This document shows, in pieces, positions 7,635-58,554 of a stretch of DNA of 64,000 nt (the first letter of the stretch is position 1; every line of letters starts with the position of its first letter). This DNA is from Paenibacillus lactis (lineage in GTDB: Bacteria > Bacillota > Bacilli > Paenibacillales > Paenibacillaceae). The position numbers and the translations under genes are program-made. The notes under the pieces are model-generated. The model was not told where the DNA came from, did no database searches, and worked only from the letters and a program-made list of their open reading frames with translations. The DNA is taken from positions 186,001 through 250,000 of the forward strand of contig NZ_JAGGKI010000006.1 of NCBI RefSeq assembly GCF_017873605.1. The letters are read 5' to 3'.

Positions 7635-8861
7635 TTAAACCTTAGCCGATCCGGTTTGCGGGCCGGATGGCACACTGCGGAGCCAGCTGCGGCGCCATTT
7701 CAGCTGCATTACGATCGTAAGCGTCAACGAAGCCGCCGCGATAAAGCTTAAAATGATGAAGCCTGTGGCGTATGAGCCTGTCGCTTGGTACAATCGCCCT
7801 AGAATCAGCGGCAGCGCATAGCCTCCAAGTCCACCGGCAGCGCCGACGATCCCGGTAACCAGGCCGATCTCGCCGGCAAACCGTTGAGGGACGAGCTGAA
7901 ATACGGAACCGTTACCCGCTCCCAGACACATCATGCCGATAAACAGAAGGGTGACAACGACCCAAAGAGGAGGCAGGAAGGAAACACCGATCAGCATGAT
8001 CGCGGCACCGGCATAGAGAATCATCAGCATGCGGGAGCCGCCGATTCGATCGGCGAGAAAGCCCCCAACTGGGCGGAAGAAGCTCCCTGCGATGACGCAG
8101 ATCGTTGTAATGTCTGCAGCCTGAACCGCAGAGAGACCGTACTGAGTGTTAAAGAAGATCGTCAAATAGTTGGCGAGCCCGACAAAGCCGCCAAAGGTCA
8201 CGCAGTACAGGGCGCAGAATACCCAAGCATCGCGTTGTTTAAGGACATGACCATATTCGGACAGCCGTTTGGGGGCAGGGCGATTCGGACTGTTGCGGGC
8301 AAACAGCGAGAAGTAAATGAATACCAGCACAATAGGTATGATGGCAAGACCGAACACAATCTCCCAGCTTCCGAAATGCTGGGCTAGACGATTGGCGAAC
8401 AGCGTTGCAAGGACGGTACCGCTGTTCCCGGCCCCCGCAATCCCCATCGCCAGGCCTTGATGTTCCTTGGGATACCACTGACCAGCGAGAGGGAGCGCTG
8501 CGGCAAACGATGCTCCCGCGACCCCGAGCAGAACGGCAACGACGTACAATTGATCGAGTGAATCTACCCATAACCAGCCGAGCAACAGAGGGATCAGGGT
8601 GACAATCATTCCAATCTGAGCGGTGAGTTTGGGGCCGAGACGGTCAGCCAGGAAGCCTAATACAAGTCTGAGGATCGAGCCGCCCAGAACGGGCAGCGCA
8701 ACCAAATTTGCCTTCTGAACCGGATCCATCGGATAATCCGCGGCAATGATAACCGCAAGCGGCCCGAGCATGCCCCAAATCATAAAGCTGATATCGAAAT
8801 ACAGAAAAGCGCCGAACAGGGAGGGCTTATGCCCGCTTTGCCAAAAACCTTTCCTCTCCAT
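7635..8861 (-). CDS. narK: Nitrate/nitrite transporter of the NarK/NasA family
   Basis: A 408-residue major facilitator protein with about twelve hydrophobic helices. Nitrate porter signatures are present: GSILRLVLGFLADRLGPK and the two glycine-rich nitrate motifs, AGAGNSGTVLATLFANRLAQ in the first half and GIVGAAGGLGGYALPL in the second. It imports nitrate for the adjacent divergent nasB-nasC reductase. The ATG at 8861 has GAGGAG eight bases upstream. Its promoter is a near-perfect consensus, but transcription then meets a leader with two hexaloop hairpins and a terminator, so expression is probably set by antitermination (see the leader entry). It could also be named nasA. Confidence 0.92.
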   Translation of the reverse strand: MERKGFWQSGHKPSLFGAFLYFDISFMIWGMLGPLAVIIAADYPMDPVQKANLVALPVLGGSILRLVLGFLADRLGPKLTAQIGMIVTLIPLLLGWLWVDSLDQLYVVAVLLGVAGASFAAALPLAGQWYPKEHQGLAMGIAGAGNSGTVLATLFANRLAQHFGSWEIVFGLAIIPIVLVFIYFSLFARNSPNRPAPKRLSEYGHVLKQRDAWVFCALYCVTFGGFVGLANYLTIFFNTQYGLSAVQAADITTICVIAGSFFRPVGGFLADRIGGSRMLMILYAGAAIMLIGVSFLPPLWVVVTLLFIGMMCLGAGNGSVFQLVPQRFAGEIGLVTGIVGAAGGLGGYALPLILGRLYQATGSYATGFIILSFIAAASLTLTIVMQLKWRRSWLRSVPSGPQTGSAKV

Positions 8862-8943
8862 GACTTTCACTCCTCATCCAAATGTGTTCTTCTCTGTTCT
8901 CTTTGCTTCATGAAGCCAAATCGCAAAATCCCCAGCCGCAGGC

Positions 8944-9023
8944 AAAAAAGGCCGCAAGTCGCTCTTTCCCAGAACGATTCGCGGCCACATTGCCCATGAC
9001 GAAAAACACGTCATTGTGTCTTT
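8944..9023 (-). promoter_or_regulatory. narK leader: two AATG hexaloop hairpins and an overlapping terminator
   Basis: Read on the minus strand. P1 (9023-9002) is an 8-bp stem AAAGACAC/GTGTTTTT closing the six-base loop AATGAC. After seven bases, P2 (8994-8983) is GGC-AATGTG-GCC. The right arm of P2 overlaps the left arm GGCCGC (8986-8981) of a terminator whose right arm GCGGCC is at 8955-8950, followed by six T. Two short hairpins with hexaloops having A at position 1 and G at position 4, the second one excluding a terminator, is the known layout of RNA targets of ANTAR-domain antiterminators such as NasR and EutV. The matching leader of nasB supports this. Confidence 0.75.
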
Positions 9024-9054
9024 CGTCTAACTATTCAGCTGATTTGATGTTCAC

Positions 9055-9084
9055 ATTATAGACAGGAGGGGGAAATGGTGTCAA
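9055..9084 (-). promoter_or_regulatory. Consensus promoter of narK (minus strand)
   Basis: On the minus strand TTGACA (9084-9079) and TATAAT (9060-9055) are separated by 18 bases, both perfect sigma-A boxes. Transcription should start near 9048, just before the hairpin leader. Confidence 0.8.
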
Positions 9085-9141
9085 TATACATAACACAAAA
9101 GTTTAAAAAAATTTAAATTTATAAATTTACTACTCTCAAAA

Positions 9142-9158
9142 TGTAATATATATTGACA
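9142..9158 (+). promoter_or_regulatory. TnrA/GlnR-type nitrogen box
   Basis: The sequence TGTAATATATATTGACA fits the 17-base TnrA/GlnR consensus (TGTnA-n-TnACA with an AT-rich centre) at all but about two positions. It is centred near 9150. An AT-rich minus-10 candidate at 9190-9198 would put transcription start about 50 bases downstream, the distance usual for TnrA activation in Bacillus subtilis. This implies activation of nasB-nasC under nitrogen limitation. Confidence 0.6.
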
Positions 9159-9206
9159 TTATAATCGACATGAACTAATCTGTATTTAACATAATAATCG
9201 AAGATC

Positions 9207-9273
9207 GGCACAATGCTGTGCCAGTTTTGAGGCAATGACGCCCTTTCCCTGCGTGCAGGGGGAGGGCATTTTT
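9207..9273 (+). promoter_or_regulatory. nasB leader: two AATG hexaloop hairpins and an overlapping terminator
   Basis: P1 is GGCAC-AATGCT-GTGCC (9207-9222). Eight bases later P2 is GGC-AATGAC-GCC (9231-9242). The right arm of P2 forms the start of a 13-bp terminator stem (9240-9252 with 9255-9267, two G-T wobbles) followed by five T. Both loops have A1 and G4, and the P1-P2 distance (eight bases) is almost the same as in the divergent narK leader (seven bases). P1 could also close its loop by one A-T pair, leaving a tetraloop. Confidence 0.75.
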
Positions 9274-9319: not shown

Positions 9320-11488
9320 ATGCAGCGAAAGAAACTTATAGTCGTCGGGAATGGCATGGCGGGGATAAAGTGTGTTGAAGAAATCCTAAAGCTTGCTCCG
9401 GAGCACTTTGATATTACGATCTTCGGAGCCGAGGCCTTTCCAAACTATAATCGGATCCTCTTATCCAAAGTCCTGCAAGGTGAACATGCGCTGCAGGATA
9501 TTATTCTGAACGACTGGTCCTGGTATGAGCGGCATGGGATCCGCTTGTTGGCCGGTCAGCCCGTTCGTCATATCGATGCCAAACGACGTTTCGTCGAGAC
9601 AGCCTCCGGCCTACGCGCAACGTATGATGCATTAATCCTGGCAACCGGCTCATCTCCATTCATACCGCCTATCCCAGGGACGGATAAGGAAGGGGTTATA
9701 TCCTTTCGAACGATCGACGATTGCGAGAGAATGTCCGAAATGTCCAAATCCTATAGAAAAGCGGCTGTCATTGGCGGAGGGCTGTTAGGCTTGGAAGCAG
9801 CTCGCGGGCTGCTTCATCTTGGTATGGAGACCCAAGTGGTTCATAACGCACCCTATATCATGAATCGACAGCTGGATCGCGTCGCTGCGGATATGCTTCA
9901 GCGAGAACTCGAGAGCCAAGGGATGCAATTTTATTTGGCGAAAAACACCACGCGAATTACCGGCCGAACAAGGGCGCAGGGGCTTCGGTTTATGGACGGA
10001 ACGCGGCTTGATGCGGATGTGGTCGTCCTCGCTGTGGGGATCAGGCCGAACATAGAGCTGGCCCAAAGAAGCGGCATTCTAACGCGGAGGGCGATTGTCG
10101 TAGATGACTTCATGAGAACAAGCGATCCGAACATTTTTGCCGTGGGGGAATGCGCGGAACACCGGGGAGTAAGTTACGGCCTGGTGGCCCCCTTATATGA
10201 GCAGGGGAGAGTGCTTGCCCGCGTCATCTGCGGACACGAGACTGAGCCCTATAACGGGTCGATCCCGTCCTCCCAGCTTAAAATATCGGGTGTAGATGTT
10301 TTTTCCGCCGGCGTAATCTCGGGTGAAGGCGTAGAAACCGCTGTTCAGAACTATGATGCCGTTTGCGGCACATACAAAAAAGTAACCATGCACAACGGCA
10401 AGATTGCCGGGGCAATTCTGTTCGGGGATACGGCGGAAGGAGCTGCATTGCTGGGATTTGTGGAACGGGGCGCGGCCGTAGCAGAGCTACTCCCGCGTGA
10501 GCGTGCTGCCAGCCCGGCGGAAGCGGCGGCTGAAGCGCTGCCGGACCATGAAACGGTGTGCGCTTGCAACCGTGTCAGCAAAGCGGCGATCATTCATGCC
10601 ATAACCGACCACGATTTAACAAGTGCCGAAGAAGTAAAGGCGCATACCAAAGCATCCGCTTCTTGCGGCGGATGCCGGCCTATGGTGGTTGGAATTGTCC
10701 TATATATGAAAAACAGTAAAACGAAGGATAAGCCGCAGAAACAGAAAGCAGTCGGAATGCCGGCGGAAGCTCCTATATGTGATTGTACGGTTCATGGTCA
10801 TTCTTCAATGAAGCAAACCATTACTGACGCGGTGAATCAAGGCTGCCGTACCATCCCGGACATCATGTCGCAACTGGGCTGGAAGAAGGCGGGCGGATGT
10901 ACTATATGCCTCCCGGTCATACGATTCTATCTGGAAATGGCGGGCGTTGTTAACGATGAAGAGAGGATAGCGGCTAGGAAGGCACAAAGCCATGTTTTTT
11001 ATGCAGATCAATCGTATTATCAGGGCGTGCGGATACGTATTGACGATGGGGAAGCTTCCGAATCGGTCGCGGCTGGCATCCAGCGCATTGGGGAAAGGCT
11101 CCGCATCAGCTGGCAAGATGTAACGCTTCCTTATCCGGTAAGTGCCGGCGTGTCATATGGGACAGGGTCGCCCATTGGAATTCTGGTCCAGGGGATCGGG
11201 ATCTCAGCTTCCCCCGCAGGTTGGGAGGTGTATCTCGGCGGACATGCGGAGCATCCTGTCCGTGAAGGACAGCTGATCGGTGTTGCAGAGCAAGAGGAAG
11301 ACATCGTTCGTCTCGTATCCGCTTGCCTGCAGTGGTATCGGCAGAACAGCTTCTACGATGAACCGCTGTGGGCGTGGGTGGAACGTACGGATGTCCTTGC
11401 GATCCGGGAGATTATGCTTGACGATGATATGCAGCGTGAGCTTGCAGAAAAGCTGTCGCGACGTTCGTTGAAAGCTTATGCCGGTTAG
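9320..11488 (+). CDS. nasB: Assimilatory nitrate reductase electron-transfer subunit NasB
   Basis: A 722-residue flavoprotein. The N-terminal half is an FAD/NAD(P)H pyridine nucleotide oxidoreductase (VVGNGMAGIKC at the start, ALILATGS-type segment, AVIGGGLLGLEAARGLL for NAD(P), FAVGECAEH near residue 275). Two BFD-type [2Fe-2S] modules follow (CACNRVSKAAIIHAI with CGGC; CDCTVHG with GGCTIC). The C-terminal part resembles the tail of NirB (GWEVYLGGHAEHPVREGQL) but lacks the four siroheme/[4Fe-4S] cysteines, so it transfers electrons rather than reducing nitrite. Length and order match Bacillus subtilis NasB. It passes NAD(P)H electrons to NasC, encoded 33 bases downstream. Confidence 0.88.
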   Translation: MQRKKLIVVGNGMAGIKCVEEILKLAPEHFDITIFGAEAFPNYNRILLSKVLQGEHALQDIILNDWSWYERHGIRLLAGQPVRHIDAKRRFVETASGLRATYDALILATGSSPFIPPIPGTDKEGVISFRTIDDCERMSEMSKSYRKAAVIGGGLLGLEAARGLLHLGMETQVVHNAPYIMNRQLDRVAADMLQRELESQGMQFYLAKNTTRITGRTRAQGLRFMDGTRLDADVVVLAVGIRPNIELAQRSGILTRRAIVVDDFMRTSDPNIFAVGECAEHRGVSYGLVAPLYEQGRVLARVICGHETEPYNGSIPSSQLKISGVDVFSAGVISGEGVETAVQNYDAVCGTYKKVTMHNGKIAGAILFGDTAEGAALLGFVERGAAVAELLPRERAASPAEAAAEALPDHETVCACNRVSKAAIIHAITDHDLTSAEEVKAHTKASASCGGCRPMVVGIVLYMKNSKTKDKPQKQKAVGMPAEAPICDCTVHGHSSMKQTITDAVNQGCRTIPDIMSQLGWKKAGGCTICLPVIRFYLEMAGVVNDEERIAARKAQSHVFYADQSYYQGVRIRIDDGEASESVAAGIQRIGERLRISWQDVTLPYPVSAGVSYGTGSPIGILVQGIGISASPAGWEVYLGGHAEHPVREGQLIGVAEQEEDIVRLVSACLQWYRQNSFYDEPLWAWVERTDVLAIREIMLDDDMQRELAEKLSRRSLKAYAG

Positions 11489-11521
11489 ACGGAGGAGAAA
11501 TCGAGGGAGAGGTGGTCTAAG

Positions 11522-13660
11522 ATGGTTTATACGGATTTGGATATAGAGAGAGCTCCTGCCAAGGTAGAGACTCAATGTCCTTTTTGCAGTGTACAGTGTA
11601 AGATGACGGTTACTGAAGTGGAGGAAGGCGTTCCGGGTCAGCGACGGACTGCCTACCAGATTGAAGGCGTGCCAAACGCTGCCTCCGAGGGCAGGGTCTG
11701 CGTCAAAGGCATGAATGCGCATCAGCATGCTGTCCACTCGCAGCGGTTGCTGGAACCACTGATCCGTGTCAACGGCGAGCTCGTTTCTTGTTCCTGGGAC
11801 GAGGCGATTCACGTGATAAGCCATCGGCTAATGACGATTACAGACCAGTACGGTCCTGATGCGAATGCCGTATACGGCGGTGGATCGCTGACCAACGAAA
11901 CGGCCTATTTGCTCGGCAAATTTGCCAGAGTGGCGCTCGGCACGAAATATATCGATTATAACGGTCGTTTCTGCATGTCGGCTGCGGCCTCTGCTGGGAG
12001 TAAAACCTTTGGGATTGACAGGGGGCTGACGTTCAGGCTGGCCGACATTCCTCTGGCGCGCTGCATTGTCCTCGCCGGTACCAATATCGCGGAGTGCCAG
12101 CCAACGCTGCTGCCTTATTTTAACCAGGCGAAAGAGAACGGAGCGAAGATCGTGGTCATCGACCCGAGGAAAACGGCAACAGCCGCCATTGCGGATATTC
12201 ACCTGCCGATCAGACCGGGTACGGATGCGTTGCTGGCTGATGCCATGCTGAAGATCATCATGGATGAGGGCTTCGTGGATGAGGCATTTATCCGAGCCAG
12301 GACAAATGGTTATGATGGGCTGAGAGCCTATATGAACGGGTTCGATTTGAATCGGGCTGCCGATCTATGCGGACTGGAGCTGGAGCAGATCCGGGAGGCA
12401 GCCAGATCCTATGGCATGGCAGGCACAGGAATGATTTTGACCGCCCGAGGGGTAGAGCAGCAGACGGATGGCCATCTTGCGGTTCGGCATTTTCTGAACC
12501 TGGTCTTAGCCACAGGCAAAATCGGCAGGGAAGGCTGCGGATATGGAGCCGTCACCGGGCAGGGGAATGGACAGGGCGGAAGAGAGCATGGGCAAAAGGC
12601 AGATCAGCTGCCTGGCTACAGATCGATCGAGAATGAGGAGGACCGTAAGTACGTTGCCTCCGTATGGGGTGTTGAAGCTTCAAGCTTACCTGGAAAAGGC
12701 GTCTCGGCCTATGAGATGATGGAGCTTGTTCATCAGGGCGAGATCAAGTCTCTCTTCGTGATGGGATCCAATCCCGTGGTTTCGAATCCGAACGCCGGGC
12801 ATGTGGTGGAAGGCTTGAAGAGTCTTGATCTGCTGGTGGTTGCCGATATGTTCATGTCCGAAACGGCCCAATTGGCTGACATCGTGCTGCCGGTGACCTC
12901 CTATTTGGAGAATGAAGGGACACTGACCAATCTGGAGGGGCGGGTCCTTCTGCGGGAAGCCGGCCGTGAGCCTCCCGGTGAGGCGCGCCATGACTGGATG
13001 ATCCTCTGCTCCATAGCAGACCAACTGGGAAAAGGACTGTACTTTCGCTTCAACGGGCCTGAAGAGATATTTAACGAGCTGAGGCTGGCGAGCAAAGGCG
13101 GAGTTGCTGATTATTACGGCATCACGTATGACCGATTGCGCAGGGAGGAAGGGGTGTACTGGCCTTGCCCCTCTACCGAAGAGGCTGGGGTCGGCTTACT
13201 GTTCCAGCAATCGTTTGCCCACCCGGACGGGAAGGCAGTTTTCAACATAACAGAAGGAGAGCGCTGGGGAGGAGTGTCCGAGGAATACCCGCTAATCCTG
13301 ACCAATGGACGCGTATTGTCCCATTATCTGACCGGGGTGCAGACCCGGAGAAGCACCTCTTTGCTTGCACGCGAGCTGGAGAATTTCGCAGAGATTCACC
13401 CGACTACCGCACAGCGTTATCGGGTCCGTGACGGCGAGTGGGTCGAAGTTGTGTCGGAGCATGGCTCATTTACGGTCCGCTGCAGAGTTGGAGACTCTAT
13501 TCGGCAAGATACCCTGTTTGTCCCTATGCATTGGGGCGGGGTACAGAACGTCAATCATGCTACCCGGCCGGAGCTGGACCCGTTCTGCAAAATGCCCGGC
13601 TTCAAGACCACTGCCGTTCGTATTCGGTCTTTAAAGCAGGCAAACAGCCTGGAAGGATAA
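11522..13660 (+). CDS. nasC: Assimilatory nitrate reductase catalytic subunit NasC
   Basis: A 712-residue molybdopterin oxidoreductase, close to the 710 residues of Bacillus subtilis NasC. The N terminus has the [4Fe-4S] motif CPFCSVQCKM followed by EGRVCVKG; then NETAYLLGKFARVALGT and NGRFCMSAAASAG, where the Cys is the expected molybdenum ligand region; AGTNIAECQP; VVIDPRKTATA; GREGCGYGAVTGQGNGQGG; and a C-terminal molybdopterin-dinucleotide domain ending near VPMHWGGVQNVNHATRPELDP. It reduces nitrate to nitrite in the cytoplasm with electrons from NasB. No nitrite reductase (nasDE) follows; the next gene is behind a terminator, so nitrite must be handled by genes elsewhere. Confidence 0.93.
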   Translation: MVYTDLDIERAPAKVETQCPFCSVQCKMTVTEVEEGVPGQRRTAYQIEGVPNAASEGRVCVKGMNAHQHAVHSQRLLEPLIRVNGELVSCSWDEAIHVISHRLMTITDQYGPDANAVYGGGSLTNETAYLLGKFARVALGTKYIDYNGRFCMSAAASAGSKTFGIDRGLTFRLADIPLARCIVLAGTNIAECQPTLLPYFNQAKENGAKIVVIDPRKTATAAIADIHLPIRPGTDALLADAMLKIIMDEGFVDEAFIRARTNGYDGLRAYMNGFDLNRAADLCGLELEQIREAARSYGMAGTGMILTARGVEQQTDGHLAVRHFLNLVLATGKIGREGCGYGAVTGQGNGQGGREHGQKADQLPGYRSIENEEDRKYVASVWGVEASSLPGKGVSAYEMMELVHQGEIKSLFVMGSNPVVSNPNAGHVVEGLKSLDLLVVADMFMSETAQLADIVLPVTSYLENEGTLTNLEGRVLLREAGREPPGEARHDWMILCSIADQLGKGLYFRFNGPEEIFNELRLASKGGVADYYGITYDRLRREEGVYWPCPSTEEAGVGLLFQQSFAHPDGKAVFNITEGERWGGVSEEYPLILTNGRVLSHYLTGVQTRRSTSLLARELENFAEIHPTTAQRYRVRDGEWVEVVSEHGSFTVRCRVGDSIRQDTLFVPMHWGGVQNVNHATRPELDPFCKMPGFKTTAVRIRSLKQANSLEG

Positions 13661-15041: not shown

Positions 15042-16391
15042 TTACCATCCTACACGAATAATCAGGCCCTTCGGATCGCCCACTTCGAGATAAGCAGCTT
15101 GGCCGTTGACATCATCATATGCAAATCCATAGGCCAAGCGGTTAATGCTGTGGTCGTGCCAGAATTTTGCGTAATAATTAGCCGGAGCGGCTTGAAAGTA
15201 ATTTGACACGTTATTCCAGTCGCTCGTCGTATATACATGGCGATTGATGGCTGCGCACGTTGCAGCATCCGTCAAAGCGCCGTCGCACCGGAAAATATCC
15301 TGCGTACTGTACGGTGCGTACCCGGCGAAATAGTTGGCATTCGCGCCTCCCTGGGCGAAAGAGCCGTGAATTGGCGCTACAATGCGATATGGAGCTTGAA
15401 CGGTTGCCAGCGATTTGAATTCGGCAGGAACCTCGGCCTGGAATTTGGCGAAAATTCCGCTTCGAGTCTCGGATTCAAGCTCACCTACGGTTTGGTCAAA
15501 AGAACCTGATTTGTTGACTAGCCGATGCTGGATCGGAAAACCGAACCCATCCACGCGTGTCGTATTGCCGTGATAGCCTGCCTGGTCAACCGTGAATTCA
15601 ACGAAATCGAAAATGATATCGCGGTTTGGATCCGTTGGATTGTTCAGATCGGGACCGGCAAATCCGTGATCGAAGGTTTTCAAGTACATTGGGGAACCGA
15701 CGCTAAGAAACATTCGGCCTGAAGTAATCTGAGGCAAGGTGATCCAGGAAGCATCGCTGACCTTGTGGTAAATGTTGGCGTAATGGATGCCGTTCTTGGT
15801 TAAGTGGCCTGGCGCATCATTCAAGGCGCTCGAGATGGGGATCAGATTGCCACTCAGGTCCAGGTAGCTCCAACGACCGTTCACGGGATTGATGCCGAGG
15901 ACGCCCCAGTATATTTGCTGGTCGGTGTAAGCGCCATGGGTCCCGTTCATGATCTTTACGGAGACGGCACCGTTTGGCGGCATGGGAATCGAGGATGGGA
16001 GAATGTCATATATGGAACCGGATGAAGGGGGATCTGGCGTGGAACCAGCGGTGTACGTAAAGATATTGGTGTCGTAGGCTGGGGTTCCGTTATTATAAGT
16101 AAACCAATACGCAATGACGTTGCCAGCGGCTATGCCTGTGATCGCTTGTTCGTATCGGGATTTGCCAGCGTTGTACGCCATTCTCAAATTTTGCTGCACG
16201 CCGTCATTCACTTTGTAATGAACATCCACCCAACTCGTGTTGACGGACGATTTGAACCATATGGTAGCTGTGCTTCCGGATCGTTCGACGCCCTGCGTGT
16301 AGTCTGCGGCTTCCGCCTTCGTACCGAAGAAGGTACTGCACGTCAGCAGCAACGACAGAATCAGCAAATAAGACAATCCCTTTCGAATCAT
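15042..16391 (-). CDS. Secreted GH64 endo-beta-1,3-glucanase with N-terminal CBM56-like module
   Basis: A 449-residue secreted protein. Residues 1-28 form a signal peptide (KGLSYLLILSLLLTCSTFF, cleavage after AEA). A short beta-sandwich module (SGSTATIWFKSSVNTSWVDV and YWFTYNNGTPAYDTNIFTYT) resembles carbohydrate-binding module 56. After a Pro/Ser linker comes a GH64 catalytic domain (thaumatin-like fold): YWGVLGINPVNGRWSYLDL, FVEFTVDQAGYHGNTTRVD, and YAKFWHDHSINRLAYGFAYD. GH64 enzymes release laminaripentaose from beta-1,3-glucans such as fungal cell walls. AAAGGAGG precedes the ATG. The catalytic Glu and Asp probably lie in FVEFTVDQ, but they were not proved here. Confidence 0.88.
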   Translation of the reverse strand: MIRKGLSYLLILSLLLTCSTFFGTKAEAADYTQGVERSGSTATIWFKSSVNTSWVDVHYKVNDGVQQNLRMAYNAGKSRYEQAITGIAAGNVIAYWFTYNNGTPAYDTNIFTYTAGSTPDPPSSGSIYDILPSSIPMPPNGAVSVKIMNGTHGAYTDQQIYWGVLGINPVNGRWSYLDLSGNLIPISSALNDAPGHLTKNGIHYANIYHKVSDASWITLPQITSGRMFLSVGSPMYLKTFDHGFAGPDLNNPTDPNRDIIFDFVEFTVDQAGYHGNTTRVDGFGFPIQHRLVNKSGSFDQTVGELESETRSGIFAKFQAEVPAEFKSLATVQAPYRIVAPIHGSFAQGGANANYFAGYAPYSTQDIFRCDGALTDAATCAAINRHVYTTSDWNNVSNYFQAAPANYYAKFWHDHSINRLAYGFAYDDVNGQAAYLEVGDPKGLIIRVGW

Positions 16392-37130: not shown

Positions 37131-37213
37131 ATGCGATCCGTATCGGAAATTGAACAGGCACTGTCCAAGCCCGAAGCAGGAACGACGAAGCAAAGAAGCG
37201 GATGGTCATAAAA

Positions 37214-37246
37214 AAAAGAACCTGAGTCGATGGACCAGGTTCTTTT
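37214..37246 (+). terminator. Terminator of the carbohydrate operon
   Basis: AAAAGAACCTG (37214-37224) pairs perfectly with CAGGTTCTTTT (37236-37246), giving A and T tracts on the two sides. Confidence 0.85.
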
Positions 37247-37249
37247 GTA

Positions 37250-37278
37250 TTGCATATAAACAGACGCGGTGATATAAT
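37250..37278 (+). promoter_or_regulatory. Promoter of the rifamycin phosphotransferase gene
   Basis: TTGCAT (37250-37255) and a perfect TATAAT (37273-37278) with a 17-base spacer; transcription should start near 37285, leaving a leader of about 115 bases with a T8 tract at 37365-37372. No defined element was recognised in that leader. Confidence 0.65.
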
Positions 37279-37400
37279 CAGACCACGACTGAGATTGTGT
37301 AAAAGGTCATAAATATCTTATCTTACATTTTCATTGTAGCATGCCGAAAAATCTCTTGTCAAATGTTTTTTTTCAAATCCATGGTTAGGAGAGATGTTGA

Positions 37401-42276: not shown

Positions 42277-42303
42277 ATGGTTCACTCCATGCGTTTATGG
42301 TAA
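42277..42303 (+). CDS. Leader peptide MVHSMRLW of the ABC-F gene
   Basis: An eight-codon ORF (M V H S M R L W stop) with AGGAGG ten bases before the ATG, about 26 bases from the transcription start. It closely resembles macrolide-stalling leader peptides (MTHSMRLR of ErmD, MTASMRLK of MsrSA), sharing the MRL core; the last residue is Trp instead of a basic one. Stalling on an inhibitor-bound ribosome would place it just before the antiterminator arm at 42326. Below normal gene length, but strongly supported by the ribosome site and position. Confidence 0.8.
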   Translation: MVHSMRLW

Positions 42304-42325
42304 GTATGCGATAAAGAAGCGGATT

Positions 42326-42481
42326 TCCACTCGTGTGGGCTTTTTTTGAGCTGCTTATTTTTACGTATGAGGACATTGATTGCGACCTGGACGGCATATT
42401 TGCTGTGCCTTATTTCGCTCTGTTCTGGCACGTAACCCATGCAGATTCAAGCCCACACGTGGACTTGAATCTGCATTTTTT
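42326..42481 (+). promoter_or_regulatory. Transcription attenuator (antiterminator and terminator) of the ABC-F gene
   Basis: The terminator is a 13-bp perfect stem, ATGCAGATTCAAG (42439-42451) with CTTGAATCTGCAT (42464-42476), plus an inner CCAC/GTGG pair and a T run. The early segment 42326-42342 is complementary, but for a two-base bulge, to 42449-42463, which forms the top of that terminator. The two pairings exclude each other, so a ribosome stalled on the leader peptide at 42277 can decide between them. A small local hairpin CCAC-TCGT-GTGG followed by seven T (42328-42348) may be the competing or an early terminating structure. Confidence 0.75.
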
Positions 42482-42540
42482 ATTGCTCTCCTGCTGGCAA
42501 TGTAACGTCAAAGTCATTGATATGAAAAGGAGGCATGAGG

Positions 42541-52142: not shown

Positions 52143-52790
52143 TTGGGTACAACAAAGAAGGAGGACAGTAAGAGCTGCGAACGATCAGGTATTCGCATAA
52201 AAAGGAAACGAAGTAAAGCGCAGCTTACCAGGGTCGTCGACGTCCTTAACACCATTAATACGCAGCTCACCGGCATCAACTCGAACTTGAACAATAATAT
52301 TAACAGCCTAACATCGGTAATCAGCAACACGGACAACAACTTGAATGCTAGCCTGATTAATTCTTTGAACACATTAAACGCCAGTTTGAACAATACCATC
52401 GAGACGAACACAAACACTATAATTAGCAATATGAATAACGGGGATAACGTTACATGTACGGTTCAACAATTCAACAACTCAACAAACTTTGACGTTCCTT
52501 GCGGCACAAGTACAACCTATTTTGAAAATCTATCGGCGTCCGCACCGGAAACCGTCATTATCTTTTTCCAAAGCTTCCAGCCAAACACCAATCCCTGCCA
52601 GCCTGTGTTAGTAGTCGTAACAAGTGAGGGCAGCGTGCTTGAAGAACCCATATCGCAAACGTTTAGTAGCATACGAGTTGATAACTTCTCTAGCATATCG
52701 GTTCGCTGCGAATCCAGCGTACCTCCTCCCGCCGGTGCAGCTTGTAACGGTTTTGTTGGTATAAATGAGTTTTTCTGTGTCTGTTGCTAA
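52143..52790 (+). CDS. Coiled-coil protein with Cys-rich C-terminal domain (paralogue A)
   Basis: A 215-residue protein of no recognised family. No signal peptide: the N terminus is strongly basic (SGIRIKRKRSKAQLTRV). Residues about 33-100 form an Asn-rich coiled-coil region (LNTINTQLTGINSNLNNNIN, then SLTSVISNTDNNLNASL) with hydrophobic residues at heptad-like spacing. The C-terminal domain of about 115 residues begins VTCTVQQFNNSTNFDVPCGT, is rich in beta-type sequence, and ends VRCESSVPPPAGAACNGFVG then NEFFCVCC. It starts with TTG behind AAAGGTG. A paralogue lies downstream, sharing the same plan; the pair flank a 120-residue gene. A surface or spore-coat component is possible because mother-cell coat proteins lack signal peptides, but this is a guess. 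Confidence 0.75.
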   Translation: MGTTKKEDSKSCERSGIRIKRKRSKAQLTRVVDVLNTINTQLTGINSNLNNNINSLTSVISNTDNNLNASLINSLNTLNASLNNTIETNTNTIISNMNNGDNVTCTVQQFNNSTNFDVPCGTSTTYFENLSASAPETVIIFFQSFQPNTNPCQPVLVVVTSEGSVLEEPISQTFSSIRVDNFSSISVRCESSVPPPAGAACNGFVGINEFFCVCC

Positions 52791-57537: not shown

Positions 57538-58554
57538 ATGTTCAGAAGAGGATTACGTTCATACATAATTGCGTTTGCAGTGATATGGCTGATCGCCATG
57601 ACGGCAGGCTGCGCAAGCGGTCCAAACAGCGGAAATGGAGCGGCTGCGTCCGGTGGGGATGGAGAAAGCGCGGCAGGCAGCAAGCTCGAGAAGATCCGCT
57701 ACGCACCGCTTAGCGGCGTCAGCGGATTAGCGGTGTCCTTCGGGGCCGAAAAGGGTTTCTTTGAAGAGGAAGGACTCGATGTCGAGTTTATCTCTACCAA
57801 GGATCCGATTGCAGGCTTGACCAGCAAGGACATTGACGTGGTGGACGTTGCTACAACGACGGCGATTGTAGCTGCAGGCAAAGGCGCACCTGTCAAAATC
57901 GTCTCCTCCATGTTTCGGACCAAAGGACCGTTCTACCTGATCGCCTCGCCGGAGAACCAGAACGTGGAAGACCTGAAGGGCAAGAAGGTGGGGATTGCCG
58001 TGTTTGGCAGCGGGCTGGAGGTGTATACGCAGTTTATCCTGAAGGAACACGGATTGACGCCAAACGATGTGACCTTCATTGCCAACAGCACGCATCAGGC
58101 CGCTTACGCGAGTTTGGAGACCGGACAGGTCGACGCAACCATCATCCATGAGCCGTTCGCGTCCCTGGCGGAGAAGCAGGGAAAAGGTCATATCATCGCA
58201 ACAGGCTGGGACTATCTGCCGACCTTCCACACCGGGGTGCTGGCAGCACGCGACGGCATTTTGGAAGAAAAGCCGGAGTTGGTTGAGAAACTGCTGCGGG
58301 CCTACTTCAAATCGCAGGAATATGCTAAAAGCCATCCGGACGAGTATAAGGCTTACTATCTGAAAAATATCGAGATCGATCCCGAGGTGCTGGATCTGGC
58401 GCTAAAGCGTGAAGAGGTGCTGTGGGAGAACAATCCGGACGTTGACATCAACGCGCTGAACGACACCCAGCAAATTCAGAAGGATTTGGGCTTCCAGGAC
58501 GAGATTTACGAGCTGGAGGACATTCTAGATTTGAGGTTTATTCCGAAAAAATAA
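57538..58554 (+). CDS. Sulfonate-type substrate-binding lipoprotein (SsuA-like)
   Basis: A 338-residue binding protein with a lipoprotein signal (LRSYIIAFAVIWLIAMTAGC, lipobox TAGC) and an SsuA/NMT1-type periplasmic fold: VSGLAVSFGAEKGFFEEEGL, KDIDVVDVATTTAIVAAGKG, LKGKKVGIAVFGSGLEVYTQ and QVDATIIHEPFASLAEKQ. These proteins bind alkanesulfonates, taurine, nitrate or pyrimidine precursors; the operon partners favour an organosulfur compound. The ATG at 57538 has GGGGGAGAGG before it. Confidence 0.87.
   Translation: MFRRGLRSYIIAFAVIWLIAMTAGCASGPNSGNGAAASGGDGESAAGSKLEKIRYAPLSGVSGLAVSFGAEKGFFEEEGLDVEFISTKDPIAGLTSKDIDVVDVATTTAIVAAGKGAPVKIVSSMFRTKGPFYLIASPENQNVEDLKGKKVGIAVFGSGLEVYTQFILKEHGLTPNDVTFIANSTHQAAYASLETGQVDATIIHEPFASLAEKQGKGHIIATGWDYLPTFHTGVLAARDGILEEKPELVEKLLRAYFKSQEYAKSHPDEYKAYYLKNIEIDPEVLDLALKREEVLWENNPDVDINALNDTQQIQKDLGFQDEIYELEDILDLRFIPKK

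Follow-up and report, generated by a model that had tools for sequence, protein, structure and literature searches.

How would two divergent nitrate operons be induced together when each transcript begins with a leader that ends in an intrinsic terminator? The question is raised by a locus of Paenibacillus lactis in which narK lies divergent from nasB-nasC (9320-13660, plus strand). The window, by which we mean the whole stretch of 64 kb analysed here (G000:C6:186001-250000), belongs to a genome of 6.74 Mb and contains the following nitrate genes:

7635..8870, minus strand: narK, nitrate/nitrite MFS transporter (TIGR00886, 293 bits, slightly below the cut-off of 311.7)
9320..11488, plus strand: nasB-type gene, 722 amino acids (NCBIfam TIGR02374, 663 bits, over the cut-off; best stretch, profile positions 1-539 of 794)
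11522..13660, plus strand: nasC, catalytic subunit of assimilatory nitrate reductase (NF047855, 1125 bits, over the cut-off of 1100)

Judged from its sequence, the nasB product would be a NirB-like NADH/FAD reductase half, the electron-transfer subunit of assimilatory nitrate reductase, and the gene is named on this reading. Elsewhere in the window there are a glycoside hydrolase family 64 beta-1,3-glucanase with CBM56 (15042-16391, minus strand) and two Rfam matches, ncr1015 at 37210-37328 (minus strand, 108.9 bits) and sRNA_1300 at 42280-42483 (plus strand, 50.1 bits, barely above the cut-off).

Paired hairpins and terminators in the two leaders

An earlier note on this DNA had assigned to both leaders a hairpin P1, a linker, a second hairpin P2 and a terminator overlapping P2, with four hexaloops of the form AATGNN. 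This layout is present on both strands, its coordinates (8944-9273) are right, and the loops AATGCT, AATGAC, AATGAC and AATGTG can be read directly in the window:

9207..9222, plus strand: P1 hairpin of the nasB leader (GGCAC 9207-9211, loop AATGCT 9212-9217 with A1 and G4, GTGCC 9218-9222; closing C-G pair)
9223-9230, plus strand: linker of the nasB leader, 8 nt
9231..9242, plus strand: P2 hairpin of the nasB leader (GGC 9231-9233, loop AATGAC 9234-9239, GCC 9240-9242)
9240..9273, plus strand: intrinsic terminator of the nasB leader (12 pairs within 9240-9267, then ATTTTT; leader z = -4.5)
9005..9020, minus strand: P1 hairpin of the narK leader (GACAC 9020-9016, loop AATGAC 9015-9010, GTGTT 9009-9005), outside the minimum-energy fold
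8983..8994, minus strand: P2 hairpin of the narK leader (GGC 8994-8992, loop AATGTG 8991-8986, GCC 8985-8983)
8944..8986, minus strand: intrinsic terminator of the narK leader, its left arm overlapping P2 (arms 8986-8979 and 8957-8950, TTTTTT 8949-8944; leader z = -4.0)

Since the 12 pairs of the nasB terminator span 9240-9267, its left arm begins in the right arm of P2. The linker, given earlier as 7-8 nt, has this length in the nasB leader only; in narK it measures 10 nt with a P1 of 5 bp, or 5 nt if P1 is drawn with 10 pairs. From loop to loop the gap is 16 and 18 nt in the two window leaders, and P2 has only 3 bp. All four hairpins carry the closing C-G pair, A1 and G4 that NasR requires according to SELEX (PMC7496416). 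Rfam gave no relevant match at gathering score in the window, or at E <= 5 in the segment 8850-9330. In the minimum-energy fold, narK P1 is displaced by a competing hairpin, ATGACG/CGTCAT at 9014-8996 of the minus strand, which may tune or weaken the response of narK; by eye, this competitor was not seen in the segments of relatives. The isolated P1-P2 stretch of the narK leader is no more stable than shuffles (z = -0.86).

Could these be chance hairpins next to ordinary terminators? A rule-based scan of the 64 kb for two A..G.. hairpins, their spacing and an overlapping terminator with a T tract returned exactly two sites, the nasB and narK leaders, which share the intergenic stretch between these nitrate genes, against one match in total among 60 first-order Markov shuffles (0.017 per shuffle). 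For the alignments, 54 distinct segments passed a selection in which both loops had to read AA.G.., loop 1 had to be preceded by C and loop 2 by GGC, and the minimum length was 3 bp for P1 and 7 pairs for the terminator; the invariance of the loop, GGC and C columns is therefore a product of the selection script. In P1, the pairs of which at columns 1-4 with 17-20 lie outside these criteria, 74 cells changed on both sides versus 24.9 in shuffles and at most 25 in slid versions. The leader sets comprised 44 of the 54 segments (10 near-duplicates dropped), 41 (this genome's three dropped) and 23 nirB leaders, and the two protein sets 40 of 80 and 39 of 79 available sequences.

Over the whole genome, the covariance model R1 scored the leader of nirB, a gene discussed below, at 53.6 bits, narK at 36.1 and nasB at 33.6, with the next hit at 18.1. 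The training of R1 had included these three sites, and the model was therefore rebuilt from all leaders except this genome's (R3). On 84 kb, R3 scored nirB 53.9, nasB 29.2 and narK 27.8 bits, the next best reaching 10.3; the E-values of nasB (7e-5) and narK (1.4e-4) in these 84 kb, multiplied by 80 for genome size, become about 0.006 and 0.011, which are scaled estimates from the 84-kb search. A model from nirB leaders alone (R2) was intended as independent genome-wide proof. Within the window it ranks both nas/nar sites first (E 0.021 and 0.056); genome-wide, the narK/nasB sites fall into noise (E 1.75 and 4.45), so that the hairpin motif by itself has no genome-wide significance. This R2 result is what speaks for chance. 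Our case is built upon terminator overlap, position and conservation rather than the hairpin motif alone, and with two sites found for 0.017 expected and leaders conserved with compensatory changes, we consider a chance origin exceedingly improbable.

The loops and the overlap are conserved also in orthologous leaders. Orthologs of narK reach up to 83% identity. Thirty narK loci were read, the window locus counted, and 22 of them have nasB next to narK; the R3 motif occurs in 28 of 29 other narK leaders and 26 of 29 divergent leaders, 14 of these 29 loci having supplied training sequences. Among five dissimilar loci outside the training (L055-L058 and L061), nine of ten leaders have E <= 0.01 and the tenth 0.026; the narK leader of L061 is a weak match of 15 bits. 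Three loci (L037, L038 and L040) have no motif in the leader divergent from narK, and in all three nasB is absent there.

The strength of the narK promoter had led to the expectation of control after initiation. The surroundings of this promoter include boxes of TnrA/GlnR type, the consensus of which is TGTNA-N7-TNACA (PMC3412718):

9055..9084, minus strand: narK promoter TTGACA-18-TATAAT, 12 of 12 consensus positions
9079..9095, no strand assigned: perfect TnrA/GlnR-type box TGTCAATATACATAACA, overlapping the narK -35
9142..9158, no strand assigned: perfect TnrA/GlnR-type box TGTAATATATATTGACA, upstream of nasB

The promoter is indeed as strong as had been noted, but the expectation has to be widened, because perfect boxes stand upstream of both leaders and make control at initiation likely too. 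A third box match in the window lies at 52606, the chance expectation being 0.56 per window, and boxes are present in 27 of 30 narK upstream regions. From this arrangement, initiation is probably nitrogen-controlled and elongation nitrate-controlled.

A distant ANTAR gene and its probable third target

Which protein could then relieve termination? As had been anticipated, no ANTAR gene lies in the window: a search of the genome at E <= 0.001 gave a single match, which lies on a different contig and whose ANTAR domain (PF03861) scores 68.5 bits against a cut-off of 27.3. The gene and the boxes around it, the latter in the coordinates of locus L002, are as follows:

G000:C1:397987-398589: ANTAR gene, encoding a protein of 200 amino acids, divergent from nirB, nirD and cobA
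L002:9651-9667: perfect TnrA/GlnR-type box before nirB
L002:9921-9937: perfect TnrA/GlnR-type box closer to the ANTAR gene

Here nirD is a small Rieske-like ORF named by eye. The nirB leader has the same element as those of narK and nasB, with P1 (GGATAC-AACGGT-GTATCC), P2 (GGC-AACGAA-GCC) and a terminator (GCCTGAC...GTCAGGC-TTTTT), and we propose that the single ANTAR protein serves three operons, which would form a nitrate/nitrite regulon.

Relatives present the same picture around nirB. The 80 named loci with an ANTAR ortholog belong to Paenibacillus, Cohnella, Saccharibacillus and two entries named Bacillus sp.; a dual A1/G4 hairpin (at least 3 bp) with overlapping terminator precedes nirB in 79, the terminator overlapping P2 in every one of them and the loop-to-loop gap being 16-20 nt in 78 and 12 nt in one. 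In the 80th locus, of P. phocaensis (L070/L013), the nirB leader is absent, apparently together with the first codons, and by eye the nirB sequence follows almost directly after the promoter region. In 74 of the 80 loci, the 700 bp before the ANTAR start contain a box of TnrA/GlnR type; among 4000 random 700-mers drawn from these loci, 196 do.

The earlier note had also suggested looking for an ANTAR gene conserved with the motif. Across 148 genomes of the family, at thresholds of E <= 0.01 for the motif and E <= 1e-30 for the ANTAR ortholog, 98 have both, 44 neither and six are discordant (five motif-only, one ANTAR-only), 18 genomes with weaker ANTAR matches only being counted as without ortholog; the P value of this co-occurrence is inflated because the genomes are related. 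In three motif-only genomes (G005, G024 and G048), a different ANTAR gene has a pair of ANTAR-type sites around it; in G048 this gene has eutP and a histidine kinase gene as neighbours, which identifies its sites as EutV targets, and by eye G005 has the same gene order. Another motif-only genome of the same genus, G069, has a weak ANTAR match of the same kind, and the ANTAR-only genome, G104, has lost its nirB leader. In a different genus of the family, three loci (L189-L191) are ANTAR clusters with dual hairpins, at about 20 bits with R1, one of which (L189) includes EutP and a kinase.

Terminators alone leave the antiterminator unnamed; instead of an ANTAR protein, a translated leader peptide, a riboswitch or a different antiterminator protein might control them. 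One genome fits such an alternative: G070 (L045), assembled in 60 contigs, keeps the motif in both narK and divergent leaders, and an ANTAR domain was not found in it at E <= 0.001. This may reflect an assembly gap, or a recent loss of the ANTAR gene that would leave the nas/nar genes uninducible. We regard the alternative as very unlikely, for the leaders in the window have no relevant Rfam match, their A1/G4 hexaloops and closing C-G pairs fit the requirements of both NasR (PMC7496416) and EutV (PMC3369931), and motif and ANTAR gene co-occur across the family.

The protein itself strengthens the ANTAR reading. EutV contacts its RNA through R142, K143, K147, K149, E160, Y164, R168, M172, N173, R175 and R177 (PMC8934654). 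When we mapped these contacts through alignment, with an offset of 6, ten of the 11 proved to be shared by this protein and all 40 orthologs (R148, K149, K155, E166, Y170, R174, M178, N179, R181 and R183), position 153 (K147 of EutV) being M in all. We infer from this conservation that the ANTAR protein binds these loops. The earlier assignment of the leaders to the ANTAR type is thus strongly supported by the unique ANTAR gene, the co-occurrence in the family, the A1/G4 loops and the retained RNA contacts. Of the known ANTAR regulators of nitrate assimilation, NasR was ruled out in this organism, since the NIT domain (PF08376) has no match in the genome at E <= 0.01.

A degenerate receiver and a TrpD2-like neighbour

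How would the signal reach this protein? The earlier note had expected an ANTAR response regulator. The ANTAR gene is there and conserved, but its product is not a normal response regulator, the phospho-acceptor not being kept: position 61 is H here and D in 11 of 40 orthologs, position 109 is never K in the 40, and no receiver family is among the Pfam matches of the protein at E <= 0.01. This pseudo-receiver carries invariant W/C/W residues of its own. The ortholog from P. campinasensis (L063; 72% identity) has a predicted fold with a mean pLDDT of 88, which finds its best Foldseek matches in Rv1626, EutV and AmiR (TM 0.45-0.53); a second comparison, with VIA-align 2, does not single out ANTAR proteins, since it places the PhoB receiver first (Z 11.9), with AmiR (11.4) and EutV (10.8) tied behind.

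Directly downstream of the ANTAR gene there is a candidate for the missing step:

L002:10615-11670 (G000:C1): TrpD2-like gene (Glycos_transf_3)

A TrpD2-like gene is found in 79 of the 80 named ANTAR loci (L063-L142). Between the ANTAR match and the start of the TrpD2-like match lie 19-69 nt in 75 of these loci and 121-317 nt in four, the offsets being those of tblastn best hits and the distances those between match ends; because best hits were counted, 'NasB' offsets in the same neighbour count mostly re-find NirB. In L067 the search found no TrpD2-like gene and, by eye, the DNA after the ANTAR gene starts alike and then diverges. With ANTAR matches split by us into class I (E <= 1e-48) and class II (weaker, to 1e-30), the TrpD2-like gene (E <= 1e-40) is present in all 73 genomes of class I and absent from the 75 others (26 of class II and 49 more); at E <= 1e-45 it is found in four of 299 Bacillota genomes, all Paenibacillaceae.

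The predicted model of the L063 protein (pLDDT 90) matches anthranilate phosphoribosyltransferase TrpD in Foldseek at 5e-23. The GTGGD and KHGN motifs of TrpD align with GPYDG and LHGS in this genome's protein, for which the match to YbiB (3e-14) is weaker than those to true TrpDs. A TrpD fold without TrpD catalytic motifs is what characterizes the TrpD2 family (YbiB). The substituted motifs are strongly conserved, with invariant PYDGR and LPPK blocks among others, and since the fold is retained while the substrate motifs are replaced by conserved others, the model suggests a pocket that is kept for a new ligand. The best NCBIfam model for the protein, with a score below its cut-off, is PRK07394, which we take to be the model of CnaT. 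Cyanobacterial CnaT is a glycosyl-transferase-type protein, to which the TrpD2-like protein is perhaps related. The product of cnaT acts as a positive regulatory element in nirA expression (PMC9430850), and nucleic-acid binding has been described for YbiB (PMC10123104); a gene-neighbourhood study of TrpD2 does not mention nitrate or nitrite in its available passages (PMC5445326).

Given that the ANTAR receiver is degenerate, the TrpD2-like protein is a candidate signalling partner of the ANTAR protein, after the model of NasS-NasT. By the same analogy, it could be the sensor of nitrate/nitrite (or of nitrogen status) in a new two-protein class of ANTAR systems, its pocket binding the signal and the protein itself holding or releasing its pseudo-receiver ANTAR partner in the manner of NasS with NasT; this we advance tentatively, as a possibility a little short of an even bet. 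Antitermination by the ANTAR protein may equally be right with the signal sensed by this protein alone or by another one, for example NasS-like, while the TrpD2-like protein has a separate role. The 26 class II genomes, which have an ANTAR ortholog and no TrpD2-like gene, are in line with such a separation: in the eight loci read (L200-L207) the motif stands before nirB in seven and between ANTAR gene and narK in all eight, the ANTAR-narK motif being weak in two of them (17.3 bits in L200, 20.6 bits in L205) and no nirB ORF being labelled in L203. So are the invariant W/C/W residues, which could hold a ligand, and the five NMT1_2 domains (PF13379, NasS/NrtA-type) of the genome. The latter, however, lie on contigs C4, C6 and C14, with no match on the ANTAR contig C1; hence no NasS adjoins the ANTAR gene, nor does any of the five come within 40 kb of the nas genes. 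Moreover, the TrpD2-like gene is strictly tied to class I and follows at short distance in nearly all named loci. On balance we find separate sensing conceivable, though we would lean slightly against it.

Two observations may be added here. One NMT1_2 domain falls within the window, at 57742-58335 of the plus strand; it scores 58.8 bits and is some 44 kb away from where nasC ends. In the class II loci L200-L207 the ANTAR gene precedes narK, and the nir operon carries a HemD-like ORF (HEM4 confirmed in L205 only, by eye in the others), the product of which might be an alternative partner or contribute to sirohaem supply.

Proposed two-layer control and its known relatives

From the motif, the terminators, their conservation, the covariation of P1, the co-occurrence and the retained RNA-contact residues, all of them read in the sequences, we conclude with high confidence that both leaders are ANTAR-responsive attenuators, served by one ANTAR protein that acts on three operons, with an additional TnrA/GlnR layer at initiation. 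Without activated ANTAR protein, the nascent RNA would form the terminator from the right arm of P2 and transcription would stop before narK or nasBC. The 200-residue protein, composed of pseudo-receiver and ANTAR domain, would bind the A1/G4 hexaloops of P1 and P2 and hold P2, blocking the terminator, and would act in the same way on the nirB-nirD-cobA leader, divergent from its own gene. The TnrA/GlnR-type box before each leader would place initiation under nitrogen limitation, so that expression would need both conditions, 'starved for nitrogen' and 'nitrate present'. Binding, antitermination, induction by nitrate/nitrite, TnrA/GlnR binding and transmission of the signal by the TrpD2-like protein are the predicted steps of this scheme.

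The Paenibacillaceae are commonly soil and root bacteria, and the scheme would put their nitrate assimilation under specific two-layer control and supply a name for the regulator gene that was missing. In addition, since a catalytically altered TrpD2-family protein is so strictly paired with an ANTAR protein of degenerate receiver, there is now a concrete candidate function for a little-understood family, and possibly for CnaT: if the reading of the TrpD2-like protein as sensor is true and it is the Bacillota counterpart of CnaT, there would be a hint to how the latter, a positive regulator of nir genes, works.

How much of this is new? Ramesh et al. (2012, PMC3369931) predicted ANTAR elements in a wide range of bacteria, ahead of genes for nitrate and nitrite transporters and for nitrite reductase. 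The name Paenibacillus is absent from the main text of that study, though its supplementary tables may already contain some of the leaders described here. In the open-licence literature we found no paper joining Paenibacillus and ANTAR with nitrate or antitermination, and ANTAR domain together with anthranilate phosphoribosyltransferase yielded only an Acinetobacter paper with one mention of each. The RNA has every sequence feature of ANTAR targets that was examined and, because control of nitrate/nitrite genes by ANTAR proteins was broadly predicted in 2012, the leaders are ordinary members of this group; the arrangement of ANTAR and TrpD2-like genes we regard as new, the role of the latter being that of a candidate.

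Four known systems are close to the one described here. NasR and the nasF leader of Klebsiella likewise combine ANTAR antitermination of nitrate assimilation with A1/G4 hexaloops and a closing C-G pair (PMC7496416), but NasR is a NIT-ANTAR one-component sensor, whereas here we have a pseudo-receiver ANTAR protein in a genome without NIT match. In the NasS-NasT system of Paracoccus, Azotobacter and Pseudomonas, too, an ANTAR protein controls a nitrate-assimilation leader; Paracoccus NasT is held by NasS, and nitrate/nitrite dissociates the two (PMC3795266). The partner there is nitrate-binding NasS, while here it would be a TrpD2-family neighbour, which class II lacks. With EutV/EutW and the eut leaders of Enterococcus, the leaders share the dual hexaloop with overlapping terminator, the same RNA-contact residues in the protein and, for the eutP leader, the AC/GU closing pairs of P1; R1, whose training leaders were all of nitrate/nitrite genes, also picks up sites next to a cluster of eutP, kinase and ANTAR genes in another genus. 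EutV, however, is phosphorylated by the kinase EutW, in contrast with the H at the phospho-acceptor position here and D in a minority of orthologs. Finally, AmiR of Pseudomonas is also a pseudo-receiver ANTAR protein (PMC7496416), and its structure (1qo0) is among the best matching folds; its partner AmiC is an amide receptor rather than a TrpD2-like protein, and its target is the amidase operon. ANTAR antitermination of nitrate genes is already known, while a TrpD2-like partner would be new.
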